Assembly (NCBI GenBank): GCA_026874595.1
Contig: CM049320.1
Coordinates: 11,185,964 to 11,249,963, forward strand
DNA length: 64,000 bases
Reading direction: 5' to 3'
Source of the DNA: Sipunculus nudus
Taxonomy: Eukaryota; Annelida; Sipuncula; Golfingiida; Sipunculidae
A program made the translations under genes and the position numbers. The notes under the pieces were generated by a model. That model searched no databases. It was not told the origin of the DNA and was given only the letters and a program-made list of their open reading frames with translations. This document shows, piece by piece, positions 1,620-57,967 of this stretch (the stretch's first letter is position 1; every line of letters starts with the position of its first letter).

Positions 1620-1668
1620 ACGGACAGACGGACCGACAGACAGACGGACAGACAGACGGACGACGGAC
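1620..1668 (+). repeat. GACA/GACG tetranucleotide microsatellite
   Basis: A run of GACA, GACG and GACC tetramers lies directly after the last 337-bp unit and before the terminal motif. Microsatellites of the same type sit at the same relative place at 11457-11477, 16949-16981, 38047-38060 (as TCCG), 41701-41733 (as TCCG/TCCT) and 56026-56060 (as TCCG). Confidence 0.9.
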
Positions 1669-1684
1669 AAAGAGTGATCGCTAT

Positions 1685-1714
1685 AGCTCAGCTTGACTGA
1701 AAGTCAGCTGAGCT
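1685..1714 (+). other. Terminal hairpin of the Helitron-like element
   Basis: AGCTCAGCTTGACT pairs with AGTCAGCTGAGCT across a GAA loop with one bulged base. It is followed by CTAA, like the hairpin plus CTRR that ends Helitrons. A related hairpin with a compensatory change is at 50781-50806. Confidence 0.75.
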
Positions 1715-1984
1715 AAAAACAGAGAAAATAAGCAAATTTATGTCCCGAGCTTTCGCCTTTAAAGTCCTAGATGATGTGATCAGGAAGTAAAAATAGTTTT
1801 AACTATGCTCAAAAGATGGCAGCACCTGGCAGATACTGCAAAACATTGAAGTACTATGTCCACTGCTAGCGACACCTGTTGGTATTAGTGAAACTAAATG
1901 TGGTCATTCATCATATGAATGAGGTACCCATGGGTAATGGTGCTCAGCTGAAGGACATTTTTAGGGACCTCCCTGGAAGTCATG

Positions 1985-2700
1985 TACGTATGAGGATTTT
2001 AGGCTAAATGGATACAAATTGTGCCCCATCTGTTTGCTCAAAAATCATGTTTTCTCCCCTTATTTGCAAAATATAGATAATTATGACCTAATTTCCAGTT
2101 TCCAAGGGTATTTTTCATGGAACTCTAAGGATCTCAAGTTAGAAGATTCTAGGTCCAACACTCATGATTTGTGTCCTGCTTATGGACAACAGCTTCACTT
2201 TTAGTTCTCAGGTATAAACACAATAATTTGGTAACAGTGCTCAGCTGAAGTTTGAAAAGACTCCCAGAGTGCTCAAAATCATGCATTTCACCAATAGCCC
2301 TTAGATATAGATTACAGTGACCTTACTCTACATGCAGCTGCTGCCATTTGTGCCTTCCTGACTATTTTAGTGTCAAAATCAAATTCTTTCACAGTTTGCA
2401 AAAAAAGGATAAGAGTTATATTTCTGGGTTTCTAGGAGATATTTAGGGACCTCCCTGAAAGTCATGTATGAGGATTTTAGGCTAAACGGATACAAATTGT
2501 GCCCCATCTGACTCACTGTTTCCTTAAATATCATGTTTTCTCCCCTTATTTGCAAAATATAGATAATTATGACCTAATTTCCAGTTTCCAAGGGTATTTT
2601 TCGTGGAACTCTAAGGATCTCAAGTTAGAAGATTCTAGGTCAAACACTCATGATTTGTGCCCTGCTAATGGACAACAGCTTCATTTTTAGTTCTCAAATA
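1985..2700 (+). repeat. Pair of ~480-bp sub-repeats inside unit 1
   Basis: The block beginning 'tatgaggattttaggctaaa' starts near 1992 and again near 2470. Each copy holds 'ttatttgcaaaatatagata' followed by 'gacctaatttccagtttcc'. The same pair recurs in units 2 and 3 (near 4810/5290 and 7635/8115). The conserved part is clearly related to the core of the 337-bp units at the left end. The apparent 61-63-codon ORFs here are by-products of the repeat. Confidence 0.8.
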
Positions 2701-2837
2701 TAAACATAAAAAATTGAAACTAGAATGGCTTTGTGTTTGCTGTGCAATACAATTATGTTTCCCCTATTGGCCATCCCAAAACATAAGGGATAAAATTTTC
2801 ATTATCTTAAAACAATGAATCTAGATTTCAGCAGATA

Positions 2838-3325
2838 AGACCTTGAAGGTCAGGGTCACTACTTTCCAAACTCTGATTACATTTTGGCAGAAAGAACTGG
2901 TGAACTGAATTTGAACAAAAAATATAATCAGTGCCTCCAATGTTATGGGGATCACAATAAGCCTGGAAATGCATATATCTGACCTCAACGATAAACGTCA
3001 CAGAATTTTGAACACATCCATGATTTTGGTAGGAACAATGAGTGTTTCAAATTTAGAGGAAAATTATTGTGTTGACAAAACTAACTAAAATTCGGTTGAT
3101 TTGACCTTGAAGATCCTTATCAAAGTTACCAAATTTCAAGAAAATATTGGAAATACTACAAAAGTTATAGGGCTTATGAAAATGTAACATTTTGGCAGAT
3201 TTGACCTCAAGGGAAAGGTCAAGCTCACCAGATTTCGAACTCAGAAAAAAAATTTTGGTAGTAACAATGACTTTCAAAATGTGGAGGAAAATTTGCAGCC
3301 CTTCAACAGTTATCTCAGCCACAAT
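2838..3325 (+). repeat. Degenerate sub-repeats with GACCTTGA/GACCTCAA motifs
   Basis: Four loosely similar blocks of about 100-130 bp contain 'gaccttgaaggtc', 'gacctcaacgataaa', 'gaccttgaagatcc' and 'gacctcaagggaaaggtc', each followed by AT-rich sequence ending in 'ttttggtag' or similar. The pattern recurs in the other two 2.8-kb units. The motif resembles the core of the element at 15891-17000, so the two may share an origin. Confidence 0.55.
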
Positions 3326-3574
3326 ATAGTTACTATTATTCCACTGATTTATACATTTATACAGGTGGCATCACCAGTTTGCATAAACTAATGAAGAATA
3401 TGCATGCAAAGAATCATGGAAATCAATGCATTATTTATACTTGGGCCTTTGTATCAATTTTTTTCTGGGGGTACTTTCAAGCCCATAAGGCTTAAGAGGA
3501 TATTGATAAAAGAGACCTTATTTCATGTTTCCAGGGAGATTTTTAATGGAAGTCCCAGTCATCAGAGCAAAAAA

Positions 3575-3620
3575 CAAGTGGCCCATGGGTCATAACGCTC
3601 AGCTGAATTCAAGGAGCCCT
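3575..3620 (+). other. Embedded 5' end motif of the Helitron-like family
   Basis: ACAAGTGGCCCATGGG is followed by 'tcataacgctcagctgaatt'. The same sequence ends the minus-strand elements at 52452 and 57967 and, diverged, starts the element at 15891. It abuts the truncated 337-bp-type block, so a second element begins here within the tandem unit. It recurs near 6397 and 9230 in units 2 and 3. Confidence 0.7.
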
Positions 3621-6600
3621 AAACCAAGCATACTGCATACCACTGGCCTCATGTACACAATACTTGACATGGTGCTTGAAACCTTGAATAAAAATCTACA
3701 ATTTTTGATAAATTGATCAAATCGGCATATAAATGCTCATTCTGTGAAAAATTTACAGCTCATGTACTGACCTCTGTGGTTGAAGAACGACTTTATCTGC
3801 TTTACCACTCTACACAGTAGACCTGGCTTCAGCTTCTGGTAAGGTACCAGTACAGCAAGACACTGTTTACAAACACAAAAGGTCTTCATTAATTATGTAC
3901 AGAAAATAAATGGTCATGTCAGTGATGATCATCTAAATTGTGTAAGAGTCCAGGTGTGCCATGGAGAAAGGCCCTATAGACTTGAGCAGAGACCCTAAAA
4001 GCCCATAGTTCACAGGGTTAAAGAAGGAGGGCCAAGGGAAATGTGAACATGGAATTCTAGTCATATGAAATTATGACTATTTTACAGGATTTATGTCTTT
4101 GAAAGCAAGGGGAGAGTTACCCTTTAGACAGGAAAGGTTTTCCACAGGTTTAAGATGTCACAAAAAAGGGTCATGTTAGTGATGACAATCTAAATTGTGT
4201 AAGAATCAAGGTGTGCCATGGAGAGAGGAAAGGCCCTATTGTCTTCCCATAGCCAAAGTTGGTCAAAATTTAAGATACTGGTTTTATATTCATGAGAATA
4301 ACTTATAAAACTTGAAATAATCAGATTAATTTTTGGTTAATGTTAAAATCTTGATTTAATAAAGTTATATCTCTGAAAAAAGTCGAGCATCTAAAATTCT
4401 TATGGTAAGTGAGAGAATAAATTTCCTGTTTTTTCACAAGGTGCATTATGTTCTGGCCTTATTTAAGGTTAATACGAGACTTCATGGACCTCCCTGCTAG
4501 TGAAGTAAGAAGATTCTAGGTCCAATGGTTATAAAAAAAAAAAACAAAGAAAATAAGCAAATTTATGTCCCGAGCTTTCGCCTTTAAAGTCCTAGATGAT
4601 GTGGTCAGGAAGTAAAAATAGTTTTAACTATGCTCAAAAGATGGCAGCACCTGGCAGATACTGCAAAACATTGAAGTACTATGTCCACTGCTAGCGACAC
4701 CTGTTGGTATTAGTGAAACTAAATGTGGTCATTCATCATATGAATGAGGTACCCATGGGTAATGGTGCTCAGCTGAAGGACATTTTTAGGGACCTCCCTG
4801 GAAGTCATGTACTTATGAGGATTTTAGGCTAAATGGATACAAATTGTGCCCCATCTGTTTGCTCAAAAATCATGTTTTCTCCCCTTATTTGCAAAATATA
4901 GATAATTATGACCTAATTTCCAGTTTCCAAGGGTATTTTTCATGAAACTCTAAGGATCTCAAGTTAGAATATTCTAGGTCCAACACTCATGATTTGTGTC
5001 CTGCTTATGGACAACAGCTTCACTTTTAGTTCTCAGGTATAACACAATAATTTGGTAGCAGTGCTCAGCTGAAGTTTGAAAAGACTCCCAGTGCGCTCAA
5101 AATCATGCATTTCACCAATAGCCCTTAGATATAGATTACACTGACCTTACTCTACATTCAGCTGCTACCATTTGTGCCTTCCTGACTATTTTAGTGTCAA
5201 AATCAAATTCTTTCACAGTTTGCAGAAAAAGGATCAGAGTTATATTTCTGGGTTTCTAGGAGATTTTTAGGGACCTCCCTGAAATTCAAGTATGAGGATT
5301 TTAGGCTAAACGGATACAAATTGTGCCCCATCTGACTCACGGTTTCCTTAAAAATCATGTTGCTCCACTTATTTGCAAAATATAGATAATTATGACCTAA
5401 TTTCCAGTTTCCAAGGGTATTTTTTGTGGAACTCTAAGGATCTCAAGTTAGAAGATTCTAGGTCAAACACTCATGATTTGTGCCCTGCTAATGGACAACA
5501 GCTTCATTTTTAGTTCTCAAATATAAACATAAAAAATTGAAACTAGAATGGCTTTGTGTTTGCTGTGCAATACAATTATGTTTCCCCTATTGGCCATCCC
5601 AAAACATAAGGGATAAAATTTTCATTATCTTAAAACAATGAATCTAGATTTCAGCAGATTAGACCTTGAAGGTCAAGGTCACCACTTTCCAAACTCTGAT
5701 TACATTTTGGCAGAAAGAACTGGTGAACTGAATTTGAACAAAAAATATAATCAGTGCCTCCAATGTTATGGGGATCACAATAAGCCTGGAAATGCATATA
5801 TCTGACCTCAACAATAAACGTCACAGAATTTTGAACACATCCATGATTTTGGTAGGAACAATGAGTGTTTCAAATTTAGAGGAAAATTATTGTGTTGACA
5901 AGACAACTAAAATTTGGTTGATTTGACCTTGAAGATCCTTATCAAAGTTACCAAATTTCAAGAAAATATTGGAAATACTACAAAAGTTATGGGGCTTATG
6001 AAAATGTAACATTTTGGCAGATTTGACCTCAAGGGAAAGGTCAAGGTCACCAGATTTCGAACTCAGAAAAAAAATATTGGTAGTAACAATGACTTTCAAA
6101 ATGTGGAGGAAAATTTGCAGCCCTTCAACAGTTATCTCAGCCACGATATAGTTACTATTATTCCACTGATTTATACATTTATACAGGTGGCATCACCAGT
6201 TTGCATAAACTAATGAAGAATATGCATGCAAAGAATCATGGAAATCAATGCATTATTTATACTTGGGCCTTTGTATCAATTTTTTTCTGGGGGTACTTTC
6301 AAGCCCATAAGGCTTAAGAGGATATTGATAAAAGAGACCTTATTTCATGTTTCCAGGGAGATTTTTAATGGACATCCCAGTCATCAGAGCAAAAAACAAG
6401 TGGCCCATGGGTCATAACTCTCAGCTGAATTCAAGGAGCCCTAAACCAAGCATACTGCATACCACTGGCCTCATGTACACAATATTTGACATGGTGCTTG
6501 AAACCTTGAATAAAAATCTACAATTTTTGATAAATTGATCAAATCGGCATATAAATGCTCATTCTGTGAAAAATTTACAGCTCATGTACTGACCTCTGTG

Positions 6601-9600
6601 GTTGAAGAACGACTTGATCTGCTTTACCACTCTACACAGTAGACCTGGCTTCAGCTTCTGGTACGGTACCAGTACAGCAAGACACTGTTTACAAACACAA
6701 AAGGTCTTCATTAATTATGTACAGAAAATAAATGGTCATGTCAGTGATGATCATCTTAATTGTGTAAGAATCCAGGTGTGCCATGGAGAAAGGCCCTATA
6801 GACTTGAGCAGAGACCCTAAAAGCCCATAGCTCACCGGGTTAAAGAAGGAGGGCCAAGGGAAATGTGAACATGGAATTCTAGTCATATGAAATTATGACT
6901 ATTTTACAGGATTTATGTCTTTGAAAGCGAGGGGAGAGTTACCCTTTAGACAGGAAAGGTTTTCCACAGGTTTAAGATGTCACAAAAAATGGTCATGTTA
7001 GTGATGACAATCTAAATTGTGTAAGAATCAAGGTGTGCCATGGAGAGAGGAAAGGCCCTATTGTCTTCCCATAGCCAAAGTTGGTCAAAATTTAAGATAC
7101 TGGTTTTATATCCATGAGAATAACTTATAAAACTTGAAATAATCAGAGTAATTTTTGGTTAATGTTAAAATCTTGATTTAATAAAGTTATATCTCTGAAA
7201 AAAGTCAAGCATCTAAAATTCTTATGGTAAGTGAGAGAATAAATTTCCTGTTTTTTCACAAGGTGCATTATGTTCTGGCCTTATTTAAGGTTAATACGAG
7301 ACTTCATGGACCTCCCTGCTAGTGAAGTAAGAAGATTCTAGGTCCAATGGTTATAAAAAAAAAACAAAGAAAATAAGCAAATTTATGTCCCGAGCTTTCG
7401 CCTTTAAAGTCCTAGATGATGTGGTCAGGAAGAAAAAATAGTTTTAACTATGCTCAAAAGATGGCAACACCTCGCAGATACTGCAAAACATTGAAGTACT
7501 ATGTCCACTGCTAGTGACACCTGTTGGTATTAGTGAAACTAAATGTGGTCATTCATCATATGAATGAGGGACCCATGGGTAATGGTGCTCAGCTGAAGGA
7601 CATTTTTAGGGACCTCCCTGGAAGTCATGTACGTATGAGGATTTAAGGCTAAATGGATACAAATTGTGCCCCATCTGTTTGCTCAAAAATCATGTTTTCT
7701 CCCCTTATTTGCAAAATATAGATAATTATGACCTAATTTCCAGTTTCCAAGGGTATTTTTCATGGAACTCTGAGGATCTCAAGTTAGAAGATTCTAGGTC
7801 CAACACTCATGATTTGTGTCCTGCTTATGGACAACAGCTTCACTTTTAGTTCTCAGGTATAAACATAATAATTTGGTAACAGTGCTCAGCTGAAGTTTGA
7901 AAAGACTCCCAGAGTGCTCAAAATCATGCATTTCACCAATAGCCCTTAGATATAGATTACAGTGACCTTACTCTACATGCAGCTGCTGCCATTTGTGCCT
8001 TCCTGACTATTTTAGTGTCAAAATCAAATTCTTTCACAGTTTGCAAAAAAAGGATAAGAGTTATATTTCTGGGTTTCTAGGAGATATTTAGGGACCTCCC
8101 TGAAAGTCATGTATGAGGATTTTAGGCTAAACGGATACAAATTGTGCCCCATCTGACTCACTGTTTCCTTAAATATCATGCTTTCTCCCCTTATTTGCAA
8201 AATATAGATAATTATGACCTAATTTTCAGTTTCCAAGGGTATTTTTCGTGGAACTCTAAGGATCTCAAGTAAGAAGATTCTAGGTCAAACACTCATGATT
8301 TGTGCCCTGCTAATGGACAACAGCTTCATTTTTAGTTCTCAAATATAAACATAAAAAAAATGAAACTAGAATGGCTTTGTTTTTGCTGTGCAATACAATT
8401 ATGTTTCCCCTATTGGCCATCCCAAAACATAAGGGATAAAATTTTCATTATCTTAAAACAATGAATCTGGATTTCAGCAGATTAGACCTTGAAGGTCAAG
8501 GTCACCACTTTTCAAACTCTGATTACATTTTGGCAGAAAGAACTGGTGAACTGAATTTGAACAAAAAATATAATCAGTGCCTCCAATGTTATGGGGATCA
8601 CAATAAGCCTGGAAATGCATATATCTGACCTCAGGGATAAATGTCACAGAATTTGGAACACATCCATGATTTTGGTAGGAACAATAAGTGTTTCAAATTT
8701 AGAGGAAAATTTTCGCGTTCACAATACTTACTAAAATTCGGCTGATTTGACCTTGAAGATCCTTATCAAAGTTACCAAATTTCAAGCAAATATTGGAAAT
8801 ACTACAACAGTGATGGAGCTTATGAAAATGTAACATTTTGGCAGATTTGACCTCAAGGGAAAGGTCAAGCTCACCAGATTTCGAACTCAGAAAAACATTT
8901 TTGGTAGTAACAATGACTTTCAAAATGTGGAGGAAAATTTGCAGCCCTTCAACAGTTATCTCAGCCACGATATAGTTACTATTATTCCACTGATTTATAC
9001 ATTTATACAGTTGGCATCACCAGTTTGCATAAACAAATGAAGAATATGCATGCAAAGAATCATGGAAATCAATGCATTAGTTATACTTGGGCCTTTGTAT
9101 CAATTTTTTCTGGGGGTACTTTCAAGCCCATAAGGCTTAAGAGGATATTGATAAAAGAGACCTTATTTCATGTTTCCAAGAAGATTTTTAAAGGACATCC
9201 CAGTCATCACAGTCATCAGAGCAAAAAACAAGTGGCCCATGGGTCATAAGGCTCAGCTGAATTCAAGGAGCCTTAAACAAAGCATACTGCATACCACTGG
9301 CCTCATGTACACAATACTTGACATGGTGCTTGAAACCTTGAATAATAATCTACAATTTTTGATAAATTGATCAAATCGGCATATAAATGCTCATTCTGTG
9401 AAAAATTTACAGCTCGAACTGACCTCTGTGGTTGAGGAACGACTTGATCTTCTTTACCACTACACAGTAGACCTGGCTTCAGCTTCTGGTAAGGTACCAG
9501 TACAGCAAGACACTGTTTACAAACACAAAAGGTCTTCATTAATTATGTACAGAAAATAAATGGTCATGTCAGTGATGATCATCTAAATTGTGTAAGAATC

Positions 9601-9799
9601 CGGGTGTGCCATGGAGAGAGGAAAGGCCCTATAGACTTGAGCAGAGGCCCTAAAAGCCCATAGCTCACTGGGTTAAAGAAGGAGGGCCAAGGGAAATGTG
9701 AACATGGAATTCTAGTCATATGAAATTATGACTATTTTACAGGATTTCTGTGTCTTTGAAAGCGAGGGGAGAGTTACCCTTTAGACAGGAAAGGTTTTC

Positions 9800-10140
9800 C
9801 ACAGGTTTAAGATGTACAGAAAATAAATGTCATGTTAGTGATGATCATCTAAATTGTGTAAGAATCAAGGTGTGCCATGGAGAGAGGAAAGGCCCTATTG
9901 TCTTGAGCAGAGACTCAAAAAGCCCATAGCTCACTGGCAGAAGGGCCAAGGGAAATGTGAACATGGAATTTTCTAGTTTTCTCTGTCTGGAAGGGGAGGG
10001 GAAAGTTCCTTTACACAGGTTAAAGGTACATCAACAATGTTCAACACATGAAAAAGCTGATATCTGTAAGTGTGCATGATATAAATTTTATCAACAGTGC
10101 TTAATATATAAGGAAGAATGTGCCATAGCCAAAGTTTGGC
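9800..10140 (+). repeat. Extra sequence that lengthens unit 3
   Basis: Unit 3 is about 230 bp longer than units 1 and 2. The extra length repeats the block 'tgtacagaaaataaatg', 'gatgatcatctaaattg', 'gtgtgccatggagagagg' already present near 9545-9640. Units 1 and 2 keep only a shortened second copy (for example near 4160-4250). Unit 3 may therefore keep an older, less deleted arrangement. Confidence 0.65.
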
Positions 10141-10460
10141 AAAATTTAAGAGACTGGTTTTATATTCATGAGAATAACTTATAAAACTTGAAATAATCAG
10201 ATTAATTTTTGGTAAATGTTAAAATCTTGATTTAATAAAGTTATATCTCTGAAAAAAAAGTCAAGCATCCACAATTCTTATGGTAAGTGAGAGAATAAAT
10301 TTCCTGTTTTTTCACAAGGTGCATTATGTTCTGGCCTTATTTTAGGTTAATACGAGACTTCATGGACCTCCCTGCTAGTGAAGTAAGAAGATTCTAGGTC
10401 CGATGGTTATAAAAAAAACAGAGAACATAAGCAAATTTATGTCCCGAGTTTTCGCCTTTG

Positions 10461-11530
10461 ATTGCAAAGAATCATAGAAATCAATGCATTAGTTATACTT
10501 GGGCCTTTGTACCAATTTTTTTCTGGGGGTACTTTCAAGCCCACAAGGCATAAGAGGATATTGATAAAAGAGACCTTATTTCATGTTTCCAAGGAGATTT
10601 TTAATGGACATCCCAGGATGTGAAGTAAGAAGATTACAGGTCAAACAGTGTTGATTTTTGCCCTGAAAACAGATGACACTTTATTCAAGAGACTCAAAAA
10701 TCGAGAAAAATGCGTAAAAATTAAAATGGCACAGGTCAATAGTCTACAGGAACTAATGGAACACTCCATGATCAATATTCATGGCAATCAATGCATTACA
10801 TGGGTTATTTAGATACTGGAGCTTCAGTATCAATTTTGTAATTATTCTAATTTGTGCCCCATCTGACTGTCACGGTGCTCAAAATAATGTTCTCGGTTTA
10901 TAGGTGCAAAATATAGGTTTTAGTAACCTAATTTTAGGTTTCCCAAGATATTTGCCTAGGACCTCCATGAATATTAAGATAGGAGATTCCAGGCCTAATG
11001 ATTGAATTCAATGTGTGACCTGTCTGTCTGGGTGCTTAAAATACATCTTTCAGCCCATAGGTCACAGAATAAAGGTCACCATGACCTACTTTCAGGTTTC
11101 CAAGGACCTTCATGTTAGAAGTTTCCAGGACTAATGGATACAATTGTGCACCTTCTCACTGTGTGGGTGCTTATATGACATCTTTCCCTATAGGTCGCAC
11201 TATATGGTGACCTAATTTTAGGTTTCTAAGGCCATTTACCTTACTAAATGTCAAGAGGATTCTAGGCCAAATGGATACAATTTGTGCCCTGACTGTCTTG
11301 GTGCGCAAAATCATGTTTTTGGCCTGTAGGTCACGAAATATATAGGTCACCATGCCCTCATTCCAGGTTTTCAAGGAGAATTTTTATGGTCCTCCCTGGA
11401 TTTCAAGTTTGAAGATTTTTGATCCAGCGGTTATCATTTGTGTTTGGTTAACGAACAGACAGATGGACAGACAGACAATGGACAAAGAGTGATCTCTACA
11501 GGTCAGATGTCTTTAAGTCAGCTGAGCTAA
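10461..11530 (+). mobile_element. Degenerate core-array element with 3' microsatellite and terminal motif
   Basis: After the stub of the tandem array, sequence matching the internal core ('aatcatagaaatcaatgcat') resumes. It is followed by degenerate short units near 10860, 10980, 11110, 11215 and 11340, most with 'gtgacctaattttaggttt'-like blocks. A GACA-type microsatellite at about 11457-11477 precedes GTGATCTCTACAGG, and the end AGTCAGCTGAGCTAA closes it at 11530. The left arm of the terminal hairpin has decayed. The element has the same orientation as the one at 1-1716. The 67-codon ORF on the minus strand near 11171-11374 lies in repeat sequence. Confidence 0.7.
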
Positions 11531-15403: not shown

Positions 15404-15890
15404 TCATTATATAAAAATATTGAAGTTTACTGACAACATGCTTTACATAGACTCACACCTGTAAATTGCGGAGAAGCACCATAATCGGAATCACCGTGCA
15501 AACACTATATTATTATTCGCTTGTAATTTGCATTAGGATCTTCGCAGTCAGCAATATAGATTTTTAACATTTCGCGTGATATCCAATCCTTAATTTTTAT
15601 ACATGACAACATGAATTATTCTTGTTGTTTCATGTCAAGATCAAATGGTTAATCTGCATTAAGGTTTCTATTATAAAAAAAATGTAATAAAAAATTATCT
15701 GACAGGGTTTATATTATCTAAGGTGGAAATACAGTAATATATTTTATACATTATCCTGACGGCTGGTTTACTTATACTATATCCTGCTAACATATCATCT
15801 AAAAAATTAAATAACAGAATTTGAAATTAGTAATTTACTCAGTCTAAATATATCGAGCAGAGCAAAGGCACACTGAACCTTTTTTTTAAA
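15404..15890. other. No gene seen
   Basis: AT-rich sequence without a clear repeat, inverted repeat or splice-bounded ORF. Confidence 0.5.
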
Positions 15891-17000
15891 CTAGGGACCA
15901 ATGGGTCTCGACGCTCCGCTGAATTTGTCTATAAGGATATTTTTGAAGAAATTTTTCAGAATGACGGTCCTATGACCTTAACCAATGACCTTGCGACTAA
16001 ATATTTGAGAACTTATTATCATTGAACTTGCAGCATTTAGATTATTGTAACAATTTTAATAAAAAGTGGGTCAAGTGCCCTTGACCTCTGACTGGTTAAC
16101 CTAAATATCTACAGATTTCTTCCACTTTGGGCAATCAAGTCAGGTGTGAAAGAAATAAAGTTAAGGATGAAAAGTTTTTAATTAAAATGCATCCACAGTC
16201 AATTTAAAGATGTAGCTTTTGTAACCTTCACCTTTGACCTCTGGACCATGAAAATCAAAATGTGTTTTACTTAAGTGGTGGGTCATTAATGAATCAAGTT
16301 TGAAGCCAATCTGTCTAGCCAAAGCAGAATTATCATCCATAAACTTATTTGTCAATGGATTGGCCGAGTGACCCTGACCTTTGACCCTAATGACCCAAAT
16401 TAAAAAAGAATCTTCACCTATATTGGCATGTGAGTAATATCTTAAAGTTGGAAGGTTTGTGATGAAAAGTTTGGCTTGAAATGCATACACGTTACTTTTA
16501 AAGAAATGGGTCCTGTGACCTTGACCTTTGACATTTGGACCCCCGAATCGACAGGGTTCTTACGTTAATAGTGAGCCATATATAAGTTATGTTTGAAATC
16601 AATATATCAAACTTAACTGGAGTTATCATCCGGAAACTAATTTGTGATTAGATGGCCCCTGTGACCTTGACTTTTGACCTTGTGACCCCAAATTCATTTA
16701 TGCTCCCCCATACTGGCACATCAGCTATATGTGCAAGATTAAAAGTTTGGGATGAAAAGCTTGGCCTAAAAAGGCAGCCGTAATCTTTTTAAATAAGTGG
16801 GTCTTGTGACCTTGACCCTTGACCTCATGACCAAAAAAATCACACAGGTAATTTCTTAATGGCGGGTTAGTGTTAGTCATTTTTGAAAACCATATGTTAA
16901 TCAAATCTGGAGTTTTCATCTAGAAACAAATTTGTAAAGATGGCATGTGGACAGACAGACAGACCAACAGACAGACAGACAGGGTGATTACTATAGGGCA
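15891..17000 (+). mobile_element. Helitron-like element with ~147-bp GACCTTGACC core units
   Basis: The 5' end reads 'actagggaccaatggg', then 'tctcgacgctccgctgaatt', a diverged match to the ends at 3575, 52452 and 57967. The body has about seven units, with the block GTGACCTTGACCTTTGACC or a variant near 15972, 16078, 16220, 16370, 16514, 16661 and 16805; the last five are 144-150 bp apart. The 3' end has a GACA/GACC microsatellite (16949-16981) followed by GGGTGATTACTATAGGG. The end modules are thus those of the 337-bp-core elements while the core is unrelated. No protein is encoded. This is the only copy in the window in which both ends are visible on the plus strand. Confidence 0.75.
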
Positions 17001-17085
17001 TCCACTTGTGATCAATAAACACATCAGGTTTTGGGCACTAGATTGAATCACGGCTGAAAAACTGACATGATTTTTGTAATTTTAA

Positions 17086-37594: not shown

Positions 37595-37815
37595 CTGGCG
37601 ATTTTTTATGCGATTCGCAAGGGATCTGCGTTTCCTCGCCATTTATAATCACATGTGAATCGCATGTCAGAAAACTTGCCTTGCGACTATCGCGATCATC
37701 TGCGATTGCTTGCTTTTCGACTTGCGACTGACCATCATCCAACAGGTAGCGGGAGTTTTTGGTCAGCTGACTGATTCTTCGACCGGTCAGCGACCATGTC
37801 GCAGACTAAGTTGAA
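37595..37815. repeat. Region dense in TGCGA/TCGCA motifs
   Basis: GCGATT, TGCGAC, TCGCAA and ATCGCGAT recur on both strands, for example 'tatgcgattcgcaag', 'gtgaatcgcatg', 'cgactatcgcgatcat' and 'gcgattgcttgc'. 'ggtcagctgac' and 'gaccggtcagcgacc' close the block. It resembles a decayed MITE with subterminal repeats, but ends could not be fixed. Confidence 0.4.
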
Positions 37816-41306: not shown

Positions 41307-41676
41307 AATCACAATAATTCCACACAACATACTAATGTTTCAATTCCAATTTGAAATATAAGTTGTACAAAATGAATAAATATGAAATATCATATTCGCA
41401 CGATCGAATCAACGAAAGGAAGAAATAAATCCCAAATCTGCGGATACCATTGACAGGAATTTCATGATTGTGTTTGAGAAAATCGATAACTATTAGACTA
41501 AGTTTAATTCCGGAAGGACGGGGAGCACTGTATGCCCTCCCCCCCCCCCCCCCGCTTATAGTGATGTGTCAAATATTCGAGCAAAATATGTACATAATGA
41601 TTTCCATGCAACTAAATAGGTGCCCTTATTTTTTTCGTGCGTTTTTTAATGTGAAGGATATATACAAGACAAGCGG
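41305..41676. other. No gene seen; C14-type run near 41540
   Basis: AT-rich sequence with a poly-C run at about 41540-41553. Confidence 0.55.
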
Positions 41677-42385
41677 TACCCTATAGTGATCACCGTTTCA
41701 GTCCGTCCTTCCGTCCTTCCGTCCATCCGTCAATGACACTTTCTTTCGCGCGCGATAACTCAACAACGACATACTGCAGCTTTCCCAAATTCACAGGGTT
41801 GTTTGGTACCTATGAGGGTTCCAGACCTATCAAATTACAGACTTGTCGGAATTCCAATATGGTCGCCACAGCCCAATCGCTGATTTTCTTTCCCTCATGA
41901 TAACTCAACAAAGATATACTACAGCTTTCCCAAAATCTCAGGGATGATTGGTACCTATGAGGGCTCCAGACCTATCAAATTACAGACTTGTCGGAATTCC
42001 AATATGGCCGCCACAGCCCGATGGCTAATTTTCTTTTGCACACAATAACTTAACAACAACCTATACTGCAGCTTTCCCAATTTCACAGGGATCATTGGTG
42101 CCAGTATGAGGGCTCCAGACCTATTGAATTACAGACTGGCTCAAAATCAAATATGGCTAACAGATTACATTCGGTGATTCTTTATTGCACACATTATTTC
42201 AGACGTATCTTCTTTAATATCATTTGATCCAGTAGGATTTTTCCCTCATGCATATAGATAAAAATCTGTTTCTGTTAGTCATATTTTTCAAATTTAACTT
42301 AATTTTTCACCCATATGTAAATTAGTCCAGCACTTGCAGAAATGCCGTGCCCTTTGAGGACCATTTGCCGACCATATCTAGTTCA
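41677..42385 (-). mobile_element. Helitron-like element with a distinct ~145-bp core array
   Basis: On the minus strand the element ends with a GGAC/GGAA microsatellite (41701-41733), then AAACGGTGATCACTATAGGG at 41679-41698. This is the same 3' motif as at 1671, 16983 and 55999. Upstream are three tandem units, whose plus-strand landmarks 'taact(c/t)aacaa' lie at 41757, 41902 and 42047 (145-bp period). Each carries 'gcagctttccca', 'agggctccagacctat', 'acagacttgtcgg' and 'aatatggccgcc' blocks. This core is unrelated to the 337-bp and 147-bp cores. The 5' limit near 42385 is approximate. Confidence 0.65.
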
Positions 42386-47585: not shown

Positions 47586-47622
<37 letters not shown>

Positions 47623-47627
47623 CATAA

Positions 47628-47675
<48 letters not shown>

Positions 47676-47716: not shown

Positions 47717-47727
47717 GTCAATGCATT

Positions 47728-49004: not shown

Positions 49005-49135
49005 ACCTGTCTGAAAGACCACCCGTCTAATAAGACCACCCGTCTAATAAGACCACCTCTCTATTAAGAACACTCTTGAGTGAACAGTGAGATTGGATAT
49101 AACTGACCTGTCTAATAAGACCATTTAGGAATTTA
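49005..49135 (+). repeat. GACCACCCGTCTAATAA 17-bp tandem units
   Basis: After 'ggaacctgtctgaaa', two exact copies of GACCACCCGTCTAATAA and a third diverged copy run to about 49069. 'gacctgtctaataagacca' recurs near 49106. The minus-strand relative is at 38640-38765. It is probably the end of a pogo/Tigger-like MITE. Confidence 0.7.
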
Positions 49136-49640
49136 GACTTTTATTTGACCAGTCCCATCTGTGGTATTTATTAACAGATTTGTCCTAAGGACCAGAGAGG
49201 TACTTCGCACAATATCAGCCCGATGTACCAGGGTACCGATGCATGTGCTTTGTTTGCTACTACAGAACGTTATCAGACGTTCTTGCTAAGTATGAAAATA
49301 ACAATAACAAAGTCCGCCATGTTTGTGAGAGAAAACTAACACATACCAGTCCGCGTGTGGAGTTCATTCAAAAAGGAGCGAATCAAAGATATAATAATAA
49401 AAACTTAAACAAAATGTTTTGGACTTTTCAAGGTTAAATGAAAGTCCCAAGGGGTAACTATTCAATGAATTTCAGAAGATGGCATAACTTGGCTTTCTTC
49501 AACCAAAATATATGCTCAGATGATCGTTTAAGCGCCTTTTTATGTTAGTATTAAATGAACATGAGGGGACATGGTTACCGCCGAACATAGGAACGCTCCT
49601 TCAGCGAAACAGACGGCATTCATCTTTGGGTGTCAGCAAG
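49136..49640. other. No gene seen
   Basis: The 64-codon ORF starting at 49243 is AT/N-rich and unrecognised. Confidence 0.45.
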
Positions 49641-49648
49641 TGTCGACC

Positions 49649-49705
49649 CAGTGGCGCCAATTTTTCTTCCAGGGATGGGGGGGGGCTGACTTTGTATAGA
49701 TATCA

Positions 49706-49770
<65 letters not shown>

Positions 49771-50080
49771 CTTTTCAGCGTCTCTGAGTGACATGTTAAA
49801 ATATATATAAATATATTTATATATAATTAATAATATTTCAAATAATTATAATGTTTTAGAAAATAAGTTATTTTGTGAATTCTAAGCAAGGTTTAGATAT
49901 AACATTTTTTAGTAAATGGATCAAGACTCTTTGGTTCTATTTATTAATATTTTTCATTTGCAATATTATCCTATTATACTCTTAAAAGTGTGTGTATGGG
50001 GGGTGATTACATTGAACATCCCCCTCCTTGCCAAAAAGTGGGGGTATATATACCCCAATACCCCTATATTGACGCCCCTG
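49649..50080 (-). mobile_element. hAT-like MITE, inverted relative of 47335-47716
   Basis: The ends are CAGTGGCGCCAATTTTTCTT on the left and ATATTGACGCCCCTG on the right. The flanks TGTCGACC and TCTTGACC agree at six of eight positions, a decayed 8-bp target duplication. Blocks such as 'ttgtgaattctaagcaagg' and 'ggggtatatataccccaat' match the other copy on the opposite strand. It contains a (CA)n(TA)n microsatellite at about 49707-49769. It is 432 bp and non-coding; the 81-codon ORF ending in the TA run is an artefact. Confidence 0.8.
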
Positions 50081-50773
50081 TCTTGACCAATACTTAACTT
50101 CGACTTTAATCAACGAGAGCAAACTTTAATTAGAAAGGACGCAGAAGGAGAACAAGGATGCCTCAGTGTATGCAGGTGACGCCAAAAATATGTAGTATTT
50201 TCCGCCATTTTAAATCTTTTAAAAAGGTATGGTGTATTTTGGTGATTGAGTTCGTGTATTCAAACTGACTGCAAGTACAACACATTTTGGTGTGGTCTCT
50301 AACAGGTAAACGTGGTTTGTCATAATTGGTAATTTTTTCAAATTTGCGAGGGAAGAATTACACTTTGGGGTATTTTATATTGTACCATTCTTTAGATGTT
50401 GTTATATATACGTAGAGAAATGGATTGAGGGATTCTTTACATGTGAAAATTTAAGGGCTAAGATCGAATTCAGCGGATAAAATTTTTATGAAATACGAAC
50501 TTTAAGTCGTTAAACTGATGAAAGAATGTGTGCGGATAGTTATTTATAAATGGAGAAACTTGGTAATAGGTTGCATGCGTTTGGTATCTTTTTTTTTAAA
50601 AAAGGGCACCCGGTGGTTATTTTTCATGTTAAAAGGGCAGCCAGAGGTTGTTTGCCTATGCTTAATTGTTATTTAAAAAGGGCAGCGTTGACTGCTTGGA
50701 TGTTTTTTTAAGTAATGGGACAGCGAGGGGTTATTTGTGTACGATTATATTTTTAATAAAATGGGTAGCTAGA
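50081..50773. other. No gene seen; repeated 'aaaaagggca' motif
   Basis: The phrase AAAAGGGCA(G/C)C with 'ggttgtt' or 'ggttat' recurs at about 50602, 50631 and 50677, and again in 52456-52720. The pattern is a loose degenerate repeat that brackets the element at 50774-52452. Confidence 0.5.
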
Positions 50774-50780
50774 GATATAA

Positions 50781-50806
50781 GCTCAGATGACGGAAGTCAT
50801 CTGAGC
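50781..50806 (-). other. Perfect 11-bp terminal hairpin
   Basis: GCTCAGATGAC, loop GGAA, GTCATCTGAGC. Relative to 1685-1714 the stem carries a paired change (C:G there, A:T here), so pairing is kept. Confidence 0.85.
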
Positions 50807-51544
50807 ATCAGCGACCCCTTTTTATCCTTCCGTTAACAGGGCACAAATTGTAACCGCTGAACCTTGAATCTTCTAATTCGATGTACACCTAAAATTAGGT
50901 CACTTCCCTGAGTTACAGGACCTTTAAAAGTTGATAAATATAGTATATCAATAAATAATGCATTGATTGCCATGCTTATTTCTGTGACCATGGTAGTTTT
51001 CATCGGGTCCTGAAGACTGGTGGTACCACCTTTTCTTTCTTCTATTTTACGTATTTTTGCCCTTATTTTCGAGACGTTCACATGGAAAAGTCCAGGCGTT
51101 AACAGGCACAGCCCGTAACTGTGACACCTAGGAACTTTGAATGGCACATCCAGGAAGGTCTTATGGATATATCCATGGAAACCTGAAATTAGGCCATGGT
51201 GACCTATAATTTGCAAGGTACTGGCCAAAAACATAATTTTGACCACAGAGACAGTCAGATGGGGCACAAATGGTATCCATTTGACCTGGTATCTGCTAAC
51301 GTGATTTTCAGGAAGATCCTGGGTGAATGTCCTTGGACTTATAGTATTAAGTCACTGTGACCTATAATCTTTTAGCCATCTGAATAAAAAAACATGATAT
51401 TAGAACCCTGACAGTCAGATCGGCACAAATTGTATCTTCTAACACCGCATCCAGAGAAGTTTTTGGCAAATGTCCTTGAAAACCTGAAACTATGTCATGG
51501 TGACCTATTTTCTTCGCGTGACTGGCTAAAAATACGATTATGAG

Positions 51545-51725
51545 CACCCAAAAAGTCAAACAGGGCATAAATTGTATCCGTTTGCAAATGCAAATTTTTC
51601 AGAGGAAAATACTGGGCCGATCCGGCATTCGAACCCATGTCACTGGCGCACAAGTCCAGCGTTTCAACCGCCTCACTCTAGCTACACAATTCGGTCAGCT
51701 TTTTTGTCACCCCGTAACACACCCC
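51545..51725 (-). mobile_element. tRNA-derived SINE-like unit 1
   Basis: On the minus strand: 'gtgttacggggtgacaaaaa', an A-box-like TAGCTAGAGTGAGG (about 51671-51685), 'gctggacttgtgcgccagtg', the B-box-like GGTTCGAATGC near 51626-51638 and 'cggatcggcccagtattt'. No aminoacyl-stem closure is seen, so a SINE or tRNA pseudogene is the better call. Confidence 0.6.
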
Positions 51726-51844
51726 CTCTTAAGAGCGTTCTGCTATCAGAACGTGACTAATTATCCGAGAGGTCACACTTTTGTGAGCATATTCACTTGG
51801 CCATAAAGTTTACCGTCACGTTGGACAAGCCCCCATTGTGTTAC

Positions 51845-51995
51845 GAAGACAAATTGCTCAGGGAAAAATATCGGGCCGATCCGGGATTCGAACCCATGTC
51901 GATGGCGCACAAGTCCGGCATACCAACCACTTTGCTAGAAAAGCAAGCTTCACCACCGCGGCAGTTCGGTCCGCTTTTATGTCACCCAGTAACAC
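51845..51995 (-). mobile_element. tRNA-derived SINE-like unit 2
   Basis: The same order as unit 1: 'gtgttactgggtgacataaa', 'gcggaccgaactgccgcgg', 'ccggacttgtgcgccatcg', a perfect B-box GGTTCGAATCC near 51885-51897 and 'cggatcggcccgatattt'. It has the same orientation as unit 1, 250-270 bp away, so the pair may be a tandem duplication rather than two insertions. Confidence 0.6.
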
Positions 51996-52452
51996 AATAG
52001 AATCTTCTACCGTAACATCCTAGAAATTCTTGTGCAAATCTCAATGGAAACCTGGAATAAAGTCATGGAGACTTATATTCTGCAAGCTACTGGCCAAAAA
52101 CATGATTTTTAGCACCCGGACACTCAGAAAGGGCACAACTCCTAACTGTTGGATCTAGAAACGTCTTTCTTGATGTAGATGGAGGTTATTGTGAAGCCTC
52201 TTTAGACATCCTATATAATGTCACGGTGGCATATATTCTGCGAGATATGTGAAGAACATAAGGAAGCTAAACTTTATTTGCAAGGACTATGGGCATAAAG
52301 TATGATTTTGGGCACCCTGGAAGTCATTTTTACCCATTTTTCAACGTTCCTTAACAAATATTTAAAATTAGATCATAACATAAAAAATCAATGCATGTGT
52401 TCCCTGTGTGTCAAATTCAGCTGAGTGTCATGGTCCATGGGCCACTTGTTTC

Positions 52453-54249
52453 TATGTTAAAAAGGGAGTGAGGGGTTCAATGCTTTTTACCAAAAAGAGT
52501 ATCTAGGTTTTGCTTGTGTATGGATATTCTTTTTTAATAAAAGGGCGCCGAGTGATAATATGTTATGCAAAAATGTAAGAGGGGAATAGCTTGTGTGTGA
52601 TTATGTTTAAATGAAAAAAAGGCAGCGACGGGTTTGTGTTAAACAAAAAGGGCAGTGAGAGATTGTTTGTGTGTGATTTAAATAAACGGGCAGTGAGGGG
52701 ATCTTTGTGGGCGGTTATTTTTAAGGATGATTTTTTTAGACCGTGGTGTTAGGAAGTAGGAAAGGCCGGTGAACGATTGGTTGCATATTCTGAAGGGGGA
52801 AAGGCACTGATTTGCGTGTGGTATCCCAAACTAAAGCAGTGGTATTGTTTCCTATTTTAGGTTTGCTTCTGTTAATTTTTTTTTTCAGAGGAGAGAGAGA
52901 GGAGAGAGAGAAAGCTTAGGTCAAATTAGTTCAAGAAAAAGAAAGCATTCCCATAGCGCATTCTTACGTTAACATCTGTATCCATATCCAATGCCGCCTC
53001 GACATTTAATCAACCGACATCCCACCATTTCACAATAATTCACTGAAATTCATTGAAAATATAGATGATATCGACTGTTAACATCATTTGAAAACAGCCT
53101 TCTCAGTGTCAATTCTACAAATGTAGTAAAAAATAAAAATCTGTATAGTGTCTGTACAGGCTCTGACGGAAAGATTTTGAAATGAACGAGTGGCCAAGCT
53201 ACGACGTCACGGGGACTGGGAGGCGTTTTTTTTTAACCCGCGGATATATAAAAGTAAAAAAGCTTAAAGTCAGCAAAGCCAACCGATGAGCAGGCAAACC
53301 GACTACATGGGAAACTTTTTTAAGGGGGTAGGGTTAGTAGCTGTTGGTCACACGATCTAGTCCTCCCAAGGCCGTCACCGGATGTATCAACGACCATGTG
53401 ACGGCATTATGAAGTCATTGTGATTGAATCCAACTTCCATGACGCCGACATCATCATGACGACACGTGAGTTACTCTCTATAATCTATCAACGTTAAATG
53501 ACTCTTCTCGTCCACAGAAAATCTTAGAGAGTTCTCAAATGATTCTAGTGAAATCATGTGGAAGTATGGATCATAGGTGAAAGAAGAAGTAGTTAAATTA
53601 TGGGGCGGATCGGTTAATTTTGGAGATGTTGCGCCGAAAAACAAACACGAAACAGTATTGGGCCCGAATCCATATCTGCTTTTTAATTTTATCAATCCCT
53701 CTCAAATTATAATTTTTCTTATTTCGCCTATGGTTCAACCTTCCATAAACATTTCACCGGAATTTTCACTAGGACACGTACAAAGACACAATTAAGGAAG
53801 AGCATTTTACTTCTTAATCTATGAGCGAGTTCGTGTCTATCACAACAGTCCGAAATATGTATACATACAAACCCCCACCAGGGTTTTCACTTACACTTCA
53901 AGGAATTGTGACGAGGTTGTTTACTTTATGACGGGGATCGTTTTAAAGTCTCGCTAGGTCCAAAACCTCTTCATCATGGGTTGTTTACTCAAACATTTGT
54001 TATATAATTAAACCAGCCTTCATATGATTATAATTCAATTCTTAAATTTTATCCTGGTGATTGCTAGCACCATACTTCAGGTTATGAATGAGAATAGATA
54101 CCATCTTTTGTTATTTGATTAATTAAGGACTCAAGCTATAAAATTTAGTTTACACGTATGACTCTTATCAATCTTTGTAAAGCTAAATTTAAAATAATTC
54201 ACAGGGGGGGGGGGTATTGTCTCTGGGTTTATTGCGTTCGCGTTAAAGT
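52453..54249. other. No gene seen; (GA)n run at about 52890-52912
   Basis: 'aaaaagggcag' repeats continue to about 52720. A GA-rich run follows. 'cgcggatatataaaag' near 53239 is TATA-like but nothing downstream supports a gene. ORFs at 53471-53795 overlap on both strands and are unrecognised. Confidence 0.5.
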
Positions 54250-54540
54250 CTAGATGGTAATTTTCTTGGGGCAACTGAATATTACCTCCGCCATAGAAGG
54301 AGTCCCGATTCAGTGTGGGATGCTGCCAAAGGTGAAAATATTCTTTGATGGCGTTCCTGAATTCGGATCATGTGCCGGATCCACACCGAAATCTAGTAGA
54401 TTTTCCCTGGCCTTTTCACGAAATGCCCTGAAAATTTCAAATCATTCCTTTCATGATTGCATGATTTATGTTTTGAACAAACATACACGTGAACGAGGAT
54501 GAACGCATCCCCTCCTCGCGCAGGCAATTATTACGATCTG
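54250..54540 (+). repeat. Family C repeat, near-complete copy
   Basis: It has 'attacctccgccatagaagg', 'gaaaatattctttgatggcg', 'cggatcatgtgccggatcc', 'caccgaaatctagtag', 'tcatgattgcatgatttatg' and the end 'gatgaacgcatcccctcc', 'tcgcgcaggcaatta'. The 82-codon ORF covering it is not a gene. Confidence 0.7.
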
Positions 54541-55985
54541 TTAATCATAATGATGATTTGCACTATCACCAGGAAATATTTTTGCTTTCATGCTATATTA
54601 AGAGTGAATATATTTTTTTCCATTAAAAAGGGGTTTTAATTATACCAGTACACATCAGATGCTTCTTTCAATGATGATTAAAAGAAGTTGATGAGATCAG
54701 GTGCGAAAGCATGGAAGATGATGGGATAAATATGATCTTGACTTACGCGTACCATCAACATTCCCGCTTAGTTGACAGTCAGCAACTAGGGCTTTTAAGG
54801 CTATAAAGTCCACTTCGCGCAAGTCAGCAAGCACACCCTGGTCCCTGTGGTTTTGAGTAAACCGGAATAAGCAAAACGTTTAATAATACATGGTCACCTC
54901 AATCAGTACTGTTACTGTAATGCGTTTTTCCAGGTAACTTGTTATGGCAAAGCATAAGTGGAGTAGAAGGAAGCTTTCAAGACACAAATATGGTGTCAGA
55001 GACTCGAGTAAAAAACAACAAACACATATTTACTCTCCCCGCAACTACAAAACACCATATGAAACAAAAACATGCATTTTATTTACCCAAAGAAATAGAA
55101 GGTCACGATGAATCGAAACAGGTTTGACAGAAAATGATTTGTTGTCTATTCATATAATACAATTAAATATCGTCCGTTGAAGATAACCCTATTTTCTGTG
55201 CACAAAGTCGGTCCTATTTTAGAATATGAGCCAGTCTCCAGCTGGCCAGCAGATCGGCCCAGAAGAGCTATATGAATAACAGACTTGTCCAATTGGGCCA
55301 TTGAGAACATTCAGATCAAGGATATATTTTCAAGAAATTTTAGAACGGCACAAATCTGTAATCAAGTATTCCCCGACAGCCTAAATTGAGGCCTATATAG
55401 AACCCATAAAGCAGCAGAGGGCCAAGGCTCCCGTGTGACCAGAGAAAGCTTTTTAAAGTAAATTATATGGTTTTTAGATTTGATAAGGGTTATTAATGAA
55501 ATTTAGTTATTTACGTATGATCATAAGGATGGGTTTTGAGTCTATGACGGGAACGAAACATTACGAAAAAACAGAACCGCACAATCCCAGAATAACAAAA
55601 ACATCTATTCGGTTTACATATGCACAAATAGGGGTCAACTGCGAATAAGAATATAAGCTTTTCTCCCCACCCCCTCCCCAACCCCACTCGCGGCCGGGGT
55701 CTTGTGGAGAGTTTCCTTTAGGTGGTTGGTTCCAAGTGACAAATTCAGACCTAAAGGCCATTCAAAAGGCTTTTAAAAGCTAACTTTATTACAAGTCAAA
55801 AAATAGTGAACACAGTCAATTCTGTGATATGAAATATTTCCCTGTTAATATTTTTTGTCTATCAGAAATTTATCAAATCAGGAAGGCAGATTGCTAATGT
55901 TCATAATCTTATTATAGATATGTCAAATAGATATCAGGTTTAATTTATTTAGGAATTTGTTTTGTTTACATTTATCCTAGAATAA
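54541..55985. other. No gene seen
   Basis: Mixed AT-rich sequence. The 62-codon ORF at 54939-55127 is polar and unrecognised; its start is preceded by a possible acceptor 'tttttccag' near 54934, but this is too weak to call. Confidence 0.45.
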
Positions 55986-55989
55986 CAAT

Positions 55990-57967
55990 TTGTTTTTAAA
56001 TATGCTATAGCGATCACCCTTTGTCCGACGTCCGTCCGTCTAGCCGTACGGCCGTCCGTAAATAGGGCACAAATCGTAAACACTGGACTTGGAATCTTCT
56101 TGCTTGACATCCAGGGAGGTTTCTTTTACCCGTATTCTCCGAGCTATGGGTCTCCGAAATACCCCCCCCCCCCCGGAATAATCGAAAATTTGATACAAAA
56201 GCTTCAGTATCTGAATAACTATTGCCTTGATCACCATGATTCTTTGCATGACTATTGATAATGGAGTGTTCCGCCAGTTTGTATAAACTGGCGGCGCCAC
56301 CTGAATGTTTCTAATTTTTACGATTTTATTCTCTATTTTTGATACCTTCAAAAAAGCTGTCATCTGTTAACAGGGCACAAATCATAACCTCTGGACCTGG
56401 AATCATCTAACTTGACATCCAGGGAGGTCCATAAAAAATCTCCTTGGAAACTTGAAATTAGGTTTTTGTTACCCATAACATGTGAGCTATGGGGCTCCAA
56501 AGTACCCCCCCCCCCTCCCCAGAATAATGGAAAATTTGATACAAAAGCTCAAGTATCTGAACAACTATTGCGTTGATCACCATGATTCTTTGCATGGATA
56601 TTGATCATGGAATGGTTCATCAGTTTCTGCAGTCTGGTGGCGTCACCTGTTTTTTTTTTTTTTTTATTTTTACGAATATTTTTCTCTAAAGATGCAGTTA
56701 TCTATTAACAGGGCACAAATCGTAACCGCTTGACCTGGAATCTTCTAACTTGACATCCAGGGATGTCCATAAAAATCTCCTTGGAAACCTGAAATTAGGT
56801 CTCTGTTACCCATATCCTACGAGCTATGGGTCTTGTAAATACCCCTCAGAATAATTAAAATTTGATACAAAAACCAACGTATCTGAATAACTAATGCATG
56901 GATAACCATGATTCTTTGCATGGGTATTGATTATGGAGTGTTCCATCAAACTGGTGGCGCCATCTGTATTTTTCTACTTTTATGATTTTTTTTCTCTTTT
57001 TTTTTTGATACCTTCAAAGAAGCTATCATCTGTTAACAGGGCACAAATCCTAGCTGCTTGACCTGGAATCTTCTAACTTGACATCAAAGGAGGTCCATGA
57101 AAAGTCTCTGTGGAAATCTGAAATACGGTCTCTGTTACCCATATCCTCCTCGCTAAATAACCCCCAAGAATAATTAAAAATGTGATACAAAACTCTGCGT
57201 TAGTTTCAAGATAACTCCTCTGAGACCCTTGGACTGAGCTTTCCGAAACCTAGCATAGATTTTCCTTCACCTATGTTGTTGTGCCTAACAAAGACAGATG
57301 GTACCACCGCAATCTTTTCTGTGCAGTTTGAATCTGGGTGTCTTTTAGATAACAGCCAATATCTCAGGCGTGGCTCAATGTATTGTGCTCAAAATTTGCA
57401 TGTCTATAGATCTTGGATCTCTCTATCTCCTTATTGCGACTGGTGGCGTCACCTACAATACTTTTTGCGTAGTGCAATCATTTTCCTGTGGCATCCATCC
57501 GTACATCTAATTTGGGTGAAAATTGCTCATATCTCAGGAGTGGATCGAGGTATTGGTCTTAAATTTGGCATGTCCATCCATCTTGGAAAATTTTCTCATA
57601 AACCAGACAAGTGGCACCACGTACCTTTCTGTTTCTGTAGAATAAATTAATTTTCTTTTCTTAGGAATTGTGTGCCGTATTGGCCTGAAATTGTGCATGT
57701 CCATTGATGTTGGCCTGCTCCATCTTGTACTCAAGATTAGTGGCGTCCATACGTACATGTGCTTTTGGGGAAAATTGCTCATGTCTCAAGAATGGTTCAA
57801 GATATTGGTCTGAAATTAGGCATATCAACCCGTCTTGGAGAGTTTTCTCTTAAACCAGACACTTTTAAATAATAAAATTCATGATTTTTTGGCACTCTGG
57901 CAGTCATCTTTCTCATTGTTCAACTTCCTCGAATTCAGCTGAGCGTCATGGCCCATGGGCCACTGGT
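55990..57967 (-). mobile_element. Helitron-like element, minus strand, 337-bp-type core, both ends visible
   Basis: On the minus strand it starts near 57967 with ACCAGTGGCCCATGGGCC, then 'atgacgctcagctgaattc'. It ends with an ACGG microsatellite (56026-56060) and GGACAAAGGGTGATCGC, then TATAGC. GGGCACAAAT on the plus strand recurs at 56065, 56373, 56711 and 57039 (308, 338 and 328 bp), with TGGTGGCGYCAYCT near 56287, 56634, 56950 and 57440. It is the opposite-strand relative of the left-end element. C-runs near 56162 and 56504 interrupt the core. It is non-coding; the 107-125-codon ORFs are repeat translation. Confidence 0.75.
57330..57870 (+). repeat. ~250-bp sub-repeats inside the 55990-57967 element
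   Basis: 'gaaaattgctcatatctcag' at 57519 and 'gaaaattgctcatgtctcaa' at 57770 head two units, with a diverged third part near 57350. Each has 'ggtattggtct(t/g)aaatt', '(t/c)ttggaaaattttct' and 'aaaccagacaagtgg'-type blocks. The region 11735-11875 is an inverted relative. Confidence 0.7.

Follow-up and report, generated by a model that had tools for sequence, protein, structure and literature searches.

How do arrays of unlike tandem repeats come to lie between the same ends? The question is posed by a stretch of 64,000 nucleotides in the genome of Sipunculus nudus (assembly GCA_026874595.1, contig CM049320.1, positions 11,185,964 to 11,249,963; G000:C15:11185964-11249963 in our numbering), referred to here as the window. 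A first-pass annotation, made from the letters of the window alone, had described five elements (1-1716, 10461-11530, 15891-17000, 41677-42385 and 55990-57967) in which three unrelated cores finish in one 3′ end module, and had proposed that cores are swapped between fixed ends. Our analysis indicates that these elements are probably HINEs (Helentron-associated interspersed elements), rolling-circle transposons of the Helentron group that carry no genes and whose cores are exchanged as copies nest within one another on the same strand and are mobilized by read-through as composites. Exchange of cores between conserved ends is supported by the counts of the two ends across the genome and by copies with only one half in common, and the proposal of the first-pass annotation is upheld to that extent; the principle had already been shown by Cg_HINE of Crassostrea gigas.

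End motifs were counted as exact matches across the genome (1.43 Gb, 153 contigs) against a reversed-pattern control, and the anatomy of the element was read from 34 copies, namely the first 28 of the 100 box sites listed for contig C1 (at 27 loci), the left flank of the window (L009) and the five elements of the window. Orientation is given throughout from the hairpin end to the palindrome end. The hairpin end of the main family, A, opens with T5 and a subterminal inverted repeat (subTIR), a combination found 33,424 times (0 reversed), and carries a 13-bp box, GTGATCRCTATAG, found 10,744 times (43 reversed). A recognizable start, T5 and then AGCTCAGCTGAC, lies on the strand opposite to the box as spelled in 27 of the 34 copies; upstream of the hairpin in these 27, T occupies positions −1, −2 and −5 without exception, −4 in 25 and −3 in 20, and position −6 shows no base preference. 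A typical end, T5-AGCTCAGCTGACTGAAAGTCATCTGAGCTATAGCGATCAC, gives a hairpin when folded (−10.6 kcal/mol, z −4.1, 0/200 shuffles as stable), and by such folds an inverted repeat (IR) complementary to the 5′ subTIR and close to it is present in family A and weaker in a second family, B. Behind the box comes a GTCY microsatellite, measured as GTC[CTG] words per 70 bp beside the box, with 2-11 words and a level above local background in 34/34 copies. The right end consists of a subTIR and a palindrome: the family-A subTIRs are 10 bp long, GCTCAGCTGA on the 5′ side and its reverse complement TCAGCTGAGC on the 3′ side, and the latter is followed at a constant spacing of 5 bp by the 12-bp palindrome GRCCCATGGGYC. 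This full right end, TCAGCTGAGC-N5-GRCCCATGGGYC, occurs 13,944 times (0 reversed). The tail after the palindrome is ACTTGTT-like, and 27 looser right-end matches from the loci and the window (tandem-array copies included) are conserved through CTTGTT, with agreement below half beyond it. Judged by the length of open reading frames (ORFs), there is no coding capacity, the longest ATG-ORF in the 1.5 kb that follow the box measuring 39-164 aa in the 34 copies. A literature text search for the box in four spellings gave no match.

Between these ends the cores differ. Next to the box, 27 of the 34 copies carry c337 as their first core, three carry c145, one c16 and one c11b, and two have no adjoining probe match. 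Thirteen of the 34 (W1, the first element of the window, among them) could be followed to the right end, and there six different sequences precede the same subTIR, with the reservation that the right end of w11, the second window element, lies in a neighbouring tandem array and that other right ends reached may belong to nested neighbours. The clearest case of core exchange is locus L024, in which a family-A end and about one 337 unit are followed by c16 and its right end; c16 and the right end match those of the window element w16 at 79.8% identity over 904 bp, and the left ends are A in L024 and B-like in w16. In L024 the two parts meet within core sequence, some 0.4 kb away from the box. 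Neither of the two outcomes by which the first-pass annotation would have been refuted, end motifs missing from most genomic copies or cores always paired with different ends, was borne out. The window itself contains the following features.

1..1714, minus strand: part of W1 within the window, family A with a c337 core; the element starts at L009:2257, about 2.7 kb outside the left edge of the window, with its right end at L009 2262-2288
1620..1669, no strand: tetranucleotide microsatellite of W1
1674..1686, minus strand: 13-bp box of W1, exact match, GTGATCGCTATAG on the plus strand
1685..1714, minus strand: family-A terminal hairpin (subTIR and IR) of W1, as in the fold of a typical copy
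1715..10459, plus strand: about three tandem 2.82-kb units, 96-97% identity (end of the third about 81%), with W1 in the A-run of the first
9234..9260, minus strand: right end (subTIR and palindrome) nearest to w11, within the tandem array
10463..11528, minus strand: w11, family-A 5′ end, c11b and c337-related core, left part missing or rearranged
11489..11501, minus strand: box of w11, 2 mismatches
15889..17010, minus strand: w16, family-B-like hairpin end, c16 core, family-A right end
15896..15922, minus strand: right end (subTIR and palindrome) of w16
16984..16996, minus strand: box of w16, 1 mismatch
41668..42383, plus strand: w41, family B with a c145 core, from its identity to L008
41681..41693, plus strand: box of w41, exact match
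56005..57968, plus strand: w56, box and microsatellite without a family-A hairpin, c337-related and further core, family-A right end
57935..57961, plus strand: right end (subTIR and palindrome) of w56

With up to 2 mismatches allowed, the box occurs at six sites in the window, which are the five elements of the first-pass annotation and position 37687, a site with 2 mismatches and no adjoining microsatellite seen; the box of w56 (56005-56017) is an exact match. Beside the five boxes there are 4 to 11 GTC[CTG] words per 70 bp over a local background of 0.4-0.5. A single 3′ end module is nevertheless too simple a description: all five elements have the box and microsatellite, but the hairpins next to them fall into the two families A and B, and none of family A adjoins the box of w56. 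The cores of 1-1716, 10461-11530 and 55990-57967, described as part of an unrelated set, are related to one another (blastn pieces of 69-82% identity, cutoff E 1e-3), and those of 15891-17000 and 41677-42385 have no match at that cutoff to the other three or to each other; there are therefore three core kinds in the five elements. The motif AGTGGCCCATGGG, which two of the cores were said to share, is genuinely recurrent (2,441 genome-wide, 6 reversed), but 41677-42385 lacks it and has its own pair, AGGGCCCC ... GGGGCCCT. As to limits, position 10461 has no recognizable end and is the edge of the tandem array at 1715-10459, and W1 extends far beyond the window to which it had been confined.

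Family B is best seen in w41 (41668-42383) and L008, which are 86.9% identical over 717 bp and share the same terminal base. L008 has AGGGCCCCACTTGACAAGCGGTGCCC-box at one side and GGGGCCCT...GGACCATTGTCC at the other, and the 8-bp subTIR pair is clearest in this copy; an exact 22-base stretch of the family-B end occurs 379 times genome-wide (0 reversed). The third c145 copy, L005, is similar in the core but not through to the right end of w41 and L008. Families A and B have only the 13-bp box and the microsatellite in common, and in w16 a B-like left side is joined to a family-A right end.

That copies arrive by insertion is documented by W1. Its left flank (L009:1269-2256) has 97.5% identity to the missing part of a 2.82-kb unit and stops in the A-run of that unit, which continues at window position 1715, directly past the hairpin end of W1; this places the two ends of the element at 1714 and some 2.7 kb beyond the left edge of the window. 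Sister units without an interruption at this point represent the empty site. The target is an A/T run, with no duplication visible beyond the run in this one clean case, although a duplication of 1-5 bp within it would be possible. T-rich insertion without target duplication thus has two sources, the T5 before the hairpin and the single empty site of W1. Each 2.82-kb unit at 1715-10459 also contains two HINE right ends.

Copies also lie ahead of one another. A further family-A 5′ end precedes any right end in 10 of the 34 copies (one strand searched; two of the ten are one locus), and when both strands of 28 loci were searched, 13/13 extra 5′ ends had the orientation of the anchor. Three of the 28 loci (L015, L020 and L026) contain the same composite, consisting of a 5′ end, a c337 array, a variant inner 5′ end and again a c337 array, with 91-97% identity over pieces of 1.3-2.1 kb and different flanks. 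The sequence TTTCAATTTTTAGCTCAGCTGAC, a core-to-inner-end joint of this kind, has 994 matches genome-wide (0 reversed), possibly not all of the same joint, and a right end followed directly by a 5′ end has 67 (0 reversed). Two such precise joints, at C1:84382337 and 84385116, lie 2.8 kb apart in the same orientation, like a head-to-tail pair. Runs of at least six in the cores number 162 T-runs and 51 A-runs on the element strand, vs 34 and 32 in window 18-41 kb, and this excess should favour nesting on the same strand. We propose that a Helentron Rep/helicase acting in trans would recognize the ends alone, so that anything between them travels along. New copies would land in T-runs, of which the cores hold about three times more long ones than A-runs on their own strand, and would therefore nest in older copies in the same orientation. 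A transposition event passing an inner end would then mobilize a composite, and subsequent loss of the inner end would leave a fused two-core element. On this proposal, cores would change because copies nest in T-runs and read-through mobilizes composites.

Alternatively, the elements could be HINEs that exchange cores through recombination or gene conversion rather than through nesting and read-through, the shared microsatellite and box serving as the crossover point between copies. It speaks for this that families A and B have exactly those two features in common and that w16, with its B-like end and family-A right end, resembles a switch near them. The position of the L024 joint, within the cores, and the inner 5′ ends retained at composite joints point the other way, and we consider recombination an unlikely main route, though one to be kept in mind.

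The orientation of copies raises a further issue. Orientation was compared on C1 only, with matches thinned to at least 6 kb apart and with pairs that share members. At 0-2.5 Mb (n = 107) the pairs in the same orientation were 97/102 at 6-20 kb, 155/166 at 20-50, 229/262 at 50-100 and 377/467 at 100-200 kb, an agreement that 0/500 shuffles reached in any of these bins; at 200-500 kb it was reached by 425/500. Beyond 2.5 Mb (n = 367) the effect was smaller, with 111/160 at 6-50 kb (0/500 shuffles), 245/427 at 50-200 kb (3/500), 449/831 at 200-500 kb (5/500) and a fraction of 0.50 at 2-5 Mb. Along C1, matches to T5 and subTIR are nearly all on the minus strand from 96 kb to 1.15 Mb and all on the plus strand from 1.23 to 1.47 Mb. 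Insertion into older copies on the same strand explains part of these blocks: in 12/28 loci (one of which, L009, overlaps the window in the library) library-like sequence on the same strand covers at least 30% of the DNA 5′ of the end, against 3/28 on the opposite strand, while 1-kb pieces of window 18-41 kb gave 2/23 and 0/23. Strand asymmetry of T-runs was rejected as the cause of the blocks, since, taken overall, HINE orientation is not matched by that of 14-T runs (39/68 at 6-50 kb, 110/224 at 50-200 kb). Among themselves these runs gave 8/17 and 34/51 at the same distances (the latter reached by 43/2000 shuffles), and they do follow the right-end subfamily GTCAT at short range (24/33 at 6-50 kb). 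Base skew in the window yielded nothing usable on this question.

The blocks might instead reflect insertion into the lagging-strand template, in which case orientation would record the direction of the replication fork and nesting would be secondary. The strong agreement at 6-200 kb near the start of C1 and the failure of 14-T runs to match HINE orientation would suit this idea, and the orientation of IS200/IS605 is described as tracking replication direction (PMC5371812). It is nevertheless doubtful, for the agreement is lost at 200-500 kb and weakens beyond 2.5 Mb, the right-end subfamilies GG and GTCAT disagree (7/14, 38/66, 64/144), the sole exact family-B copy in the first block (C1:670819) runs opposite, and B compared with A gives 4/5, 8/37 and 17/85 (few B sites), while insertion into older copies already accounts for a share of the pattern. 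More doubtful still is the extension in which HINE orientation depends on which strand is single-stranded when the element inserts; tens of thousands of ends could then form a fossil map of fork direction in an animal genome, sharpened by same-strand nesting. Among the papers listed by text searches, no title or abstract beginning reported such an orientation bias for Helitrons.

An ordinary dispersed satellite spread by recombination or segmental duplication, its ends being part of the repeat and no transposition involved, can be dismissed as very improbable: the cores are indeed tandem repeats and the array of 2.82-kb units does contain right ends, but the sharp T5 boundary in 27/27 copies and the one interrupted site of W1 beside several uninterrupted sisters reject a satellite without transposon ends, and the same composite sits amid different flanks that, where fetched, do not look like long shared flanks.

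Several points weigh against the interpretation as HINEs with nested and read-through exchange. The 34 copies are not a random sample, all those from C1 lying within its first 2.4 Mb. As single strands, the right-end palindromes show no more stable folding than their shuffles (z −0.2 and 0.4), and the hairpin of family B is weak (z −1.5, 13/200 shuffles as stable). The subTIRs (10 bp in A, 8 bp in B) are shorter than the 11-15 bp in print for HINEs, those of Cg_HINE included (PMC4067079, PMC7492417). Two right ends and two c16 stretches run opposite to the anchor in L022, L026 and L025, and orientation is therefore not absolute. That composites arose by read-through rather than by recombination is something we infer. 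Finally, the autonomous Rep/helicase element with these ends that the first-pass annotation had looked to was not found in the readable part of 30 Rep loci and the longer flanks of 10, most 3′ sides being unread.

Matches to Rep (PF14214) number at least 143, from 150 of 195 candidates scored. In the 30 loci and longer flanks every match to the box had at least 2 mismatches, and the right-end palindrome was likewise matched no better than with 2; these 2-mismatch matches (box in L055, L056, L058 and L065, palindrome in L038, L041 and L052) were taken as chance. Rep family A1 encodes DUF6570, OTU and Rep, with PIF1 and Exo_endo_phos farther along, split over two open stretches of what was scored as a single 2,235-aa frame; other Rep families carry FYRVEFQ[QE]RGSPHIH, a Helentron-type signature (PMC4067079). 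A1 was rejected as the partner for the sides read, where its ORF-distal end has 148-bp repeats, a ACAAACAA microsatellite and a different hairpin. Downstream of the ORF (L060 at about 5.9-9.0 kb, and L062) the 148-bp arrays are tandem and the terminal hairpin of 31 bp was seen twice, so that the autonomous A1 Helentron is itself an array carrier. The Rep locus C13:9109249 was likewise set aside, with nothing in 5 kb downstream. This locus and C17:35630192 (L064 and L063) encode Rep proteins whose N-terminus matches PF04843 (Herpes_teg_N), ahead of DUF6570 and Rep; in A1 an OTU domain comes after DUF6570. Of the Rep rows listed on C1, 13/15 lie in 63.9-71.8 Mb; HINE ends are spread along the entire contig. 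A1 also bears on polarity, as the sole Helentron with its ORF-distal end read: its microsatellite and hairpin come after the ORF, which favours the reading of the hairpin side as a 3′ end, as in the first-pass annotation. By HINE convention that side is the 5′ end, and the convention, together with composites that have several hairpin ends, favours the reverse.

The kinship with bivalve pearl and HINE-type elements suggested at the outset is supported by the layout of both ends. PMC4067079 describes for HINEs, DINE-1 and mite HINEs among them, subTIRs, an IR by the 5′ subTIR, a microsatellite, central repeats, a 3′ palindrome and a TT preference, all as in the present elements; that account also has autonomous Helentrons with matching ends, which the parts of Rep loci read here did not yield. 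By the description in PMC7492417, Cg_HINE likewise has a left subTIR, IR and GTCY-type microsatellite, central repeats, and a right subTIR with palindrome; it inserts at TT-rich sites without duplication, includes two-array elements and, in its group 2, has related flanks around unrelated repeats. It differs in its monomers (138-181 bp, vs 337 bp for the main one here), whereas our composites retain inner 5′ ends and one right half stands behind two left-end families. The autonomous partner known in C. gigas is, in the same account, unrelated to Cg_HINE, the same gap as here. Bivalve Pearl elements, as described there, also place short central-repeat arrays within conserved flanks, but with repeats of about 160 bp. 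In the portion of PMC12628747 available, shuffled Helitron/satellite loci of C. gigas resemble ours in nested elements and in one array type across several elements, and the rolling-circle model with several 5′ ends ahead of one 3′ end fits as well; arrays there run in different directions, unlike the consistent same-strand nesting seen here.

If the orientation blocks hold beyond one chromosome end and outside nests, they would provide a straightforward way to test for a preference of eukaryotic rolling-circle elements for the lagging-strand template. More directly, a single genome here shows conserved transposon ends carrying satellite-type arrays and exchanging them, and the composites with retained inner ends, found at several places, are likely intermediates of that exchange.

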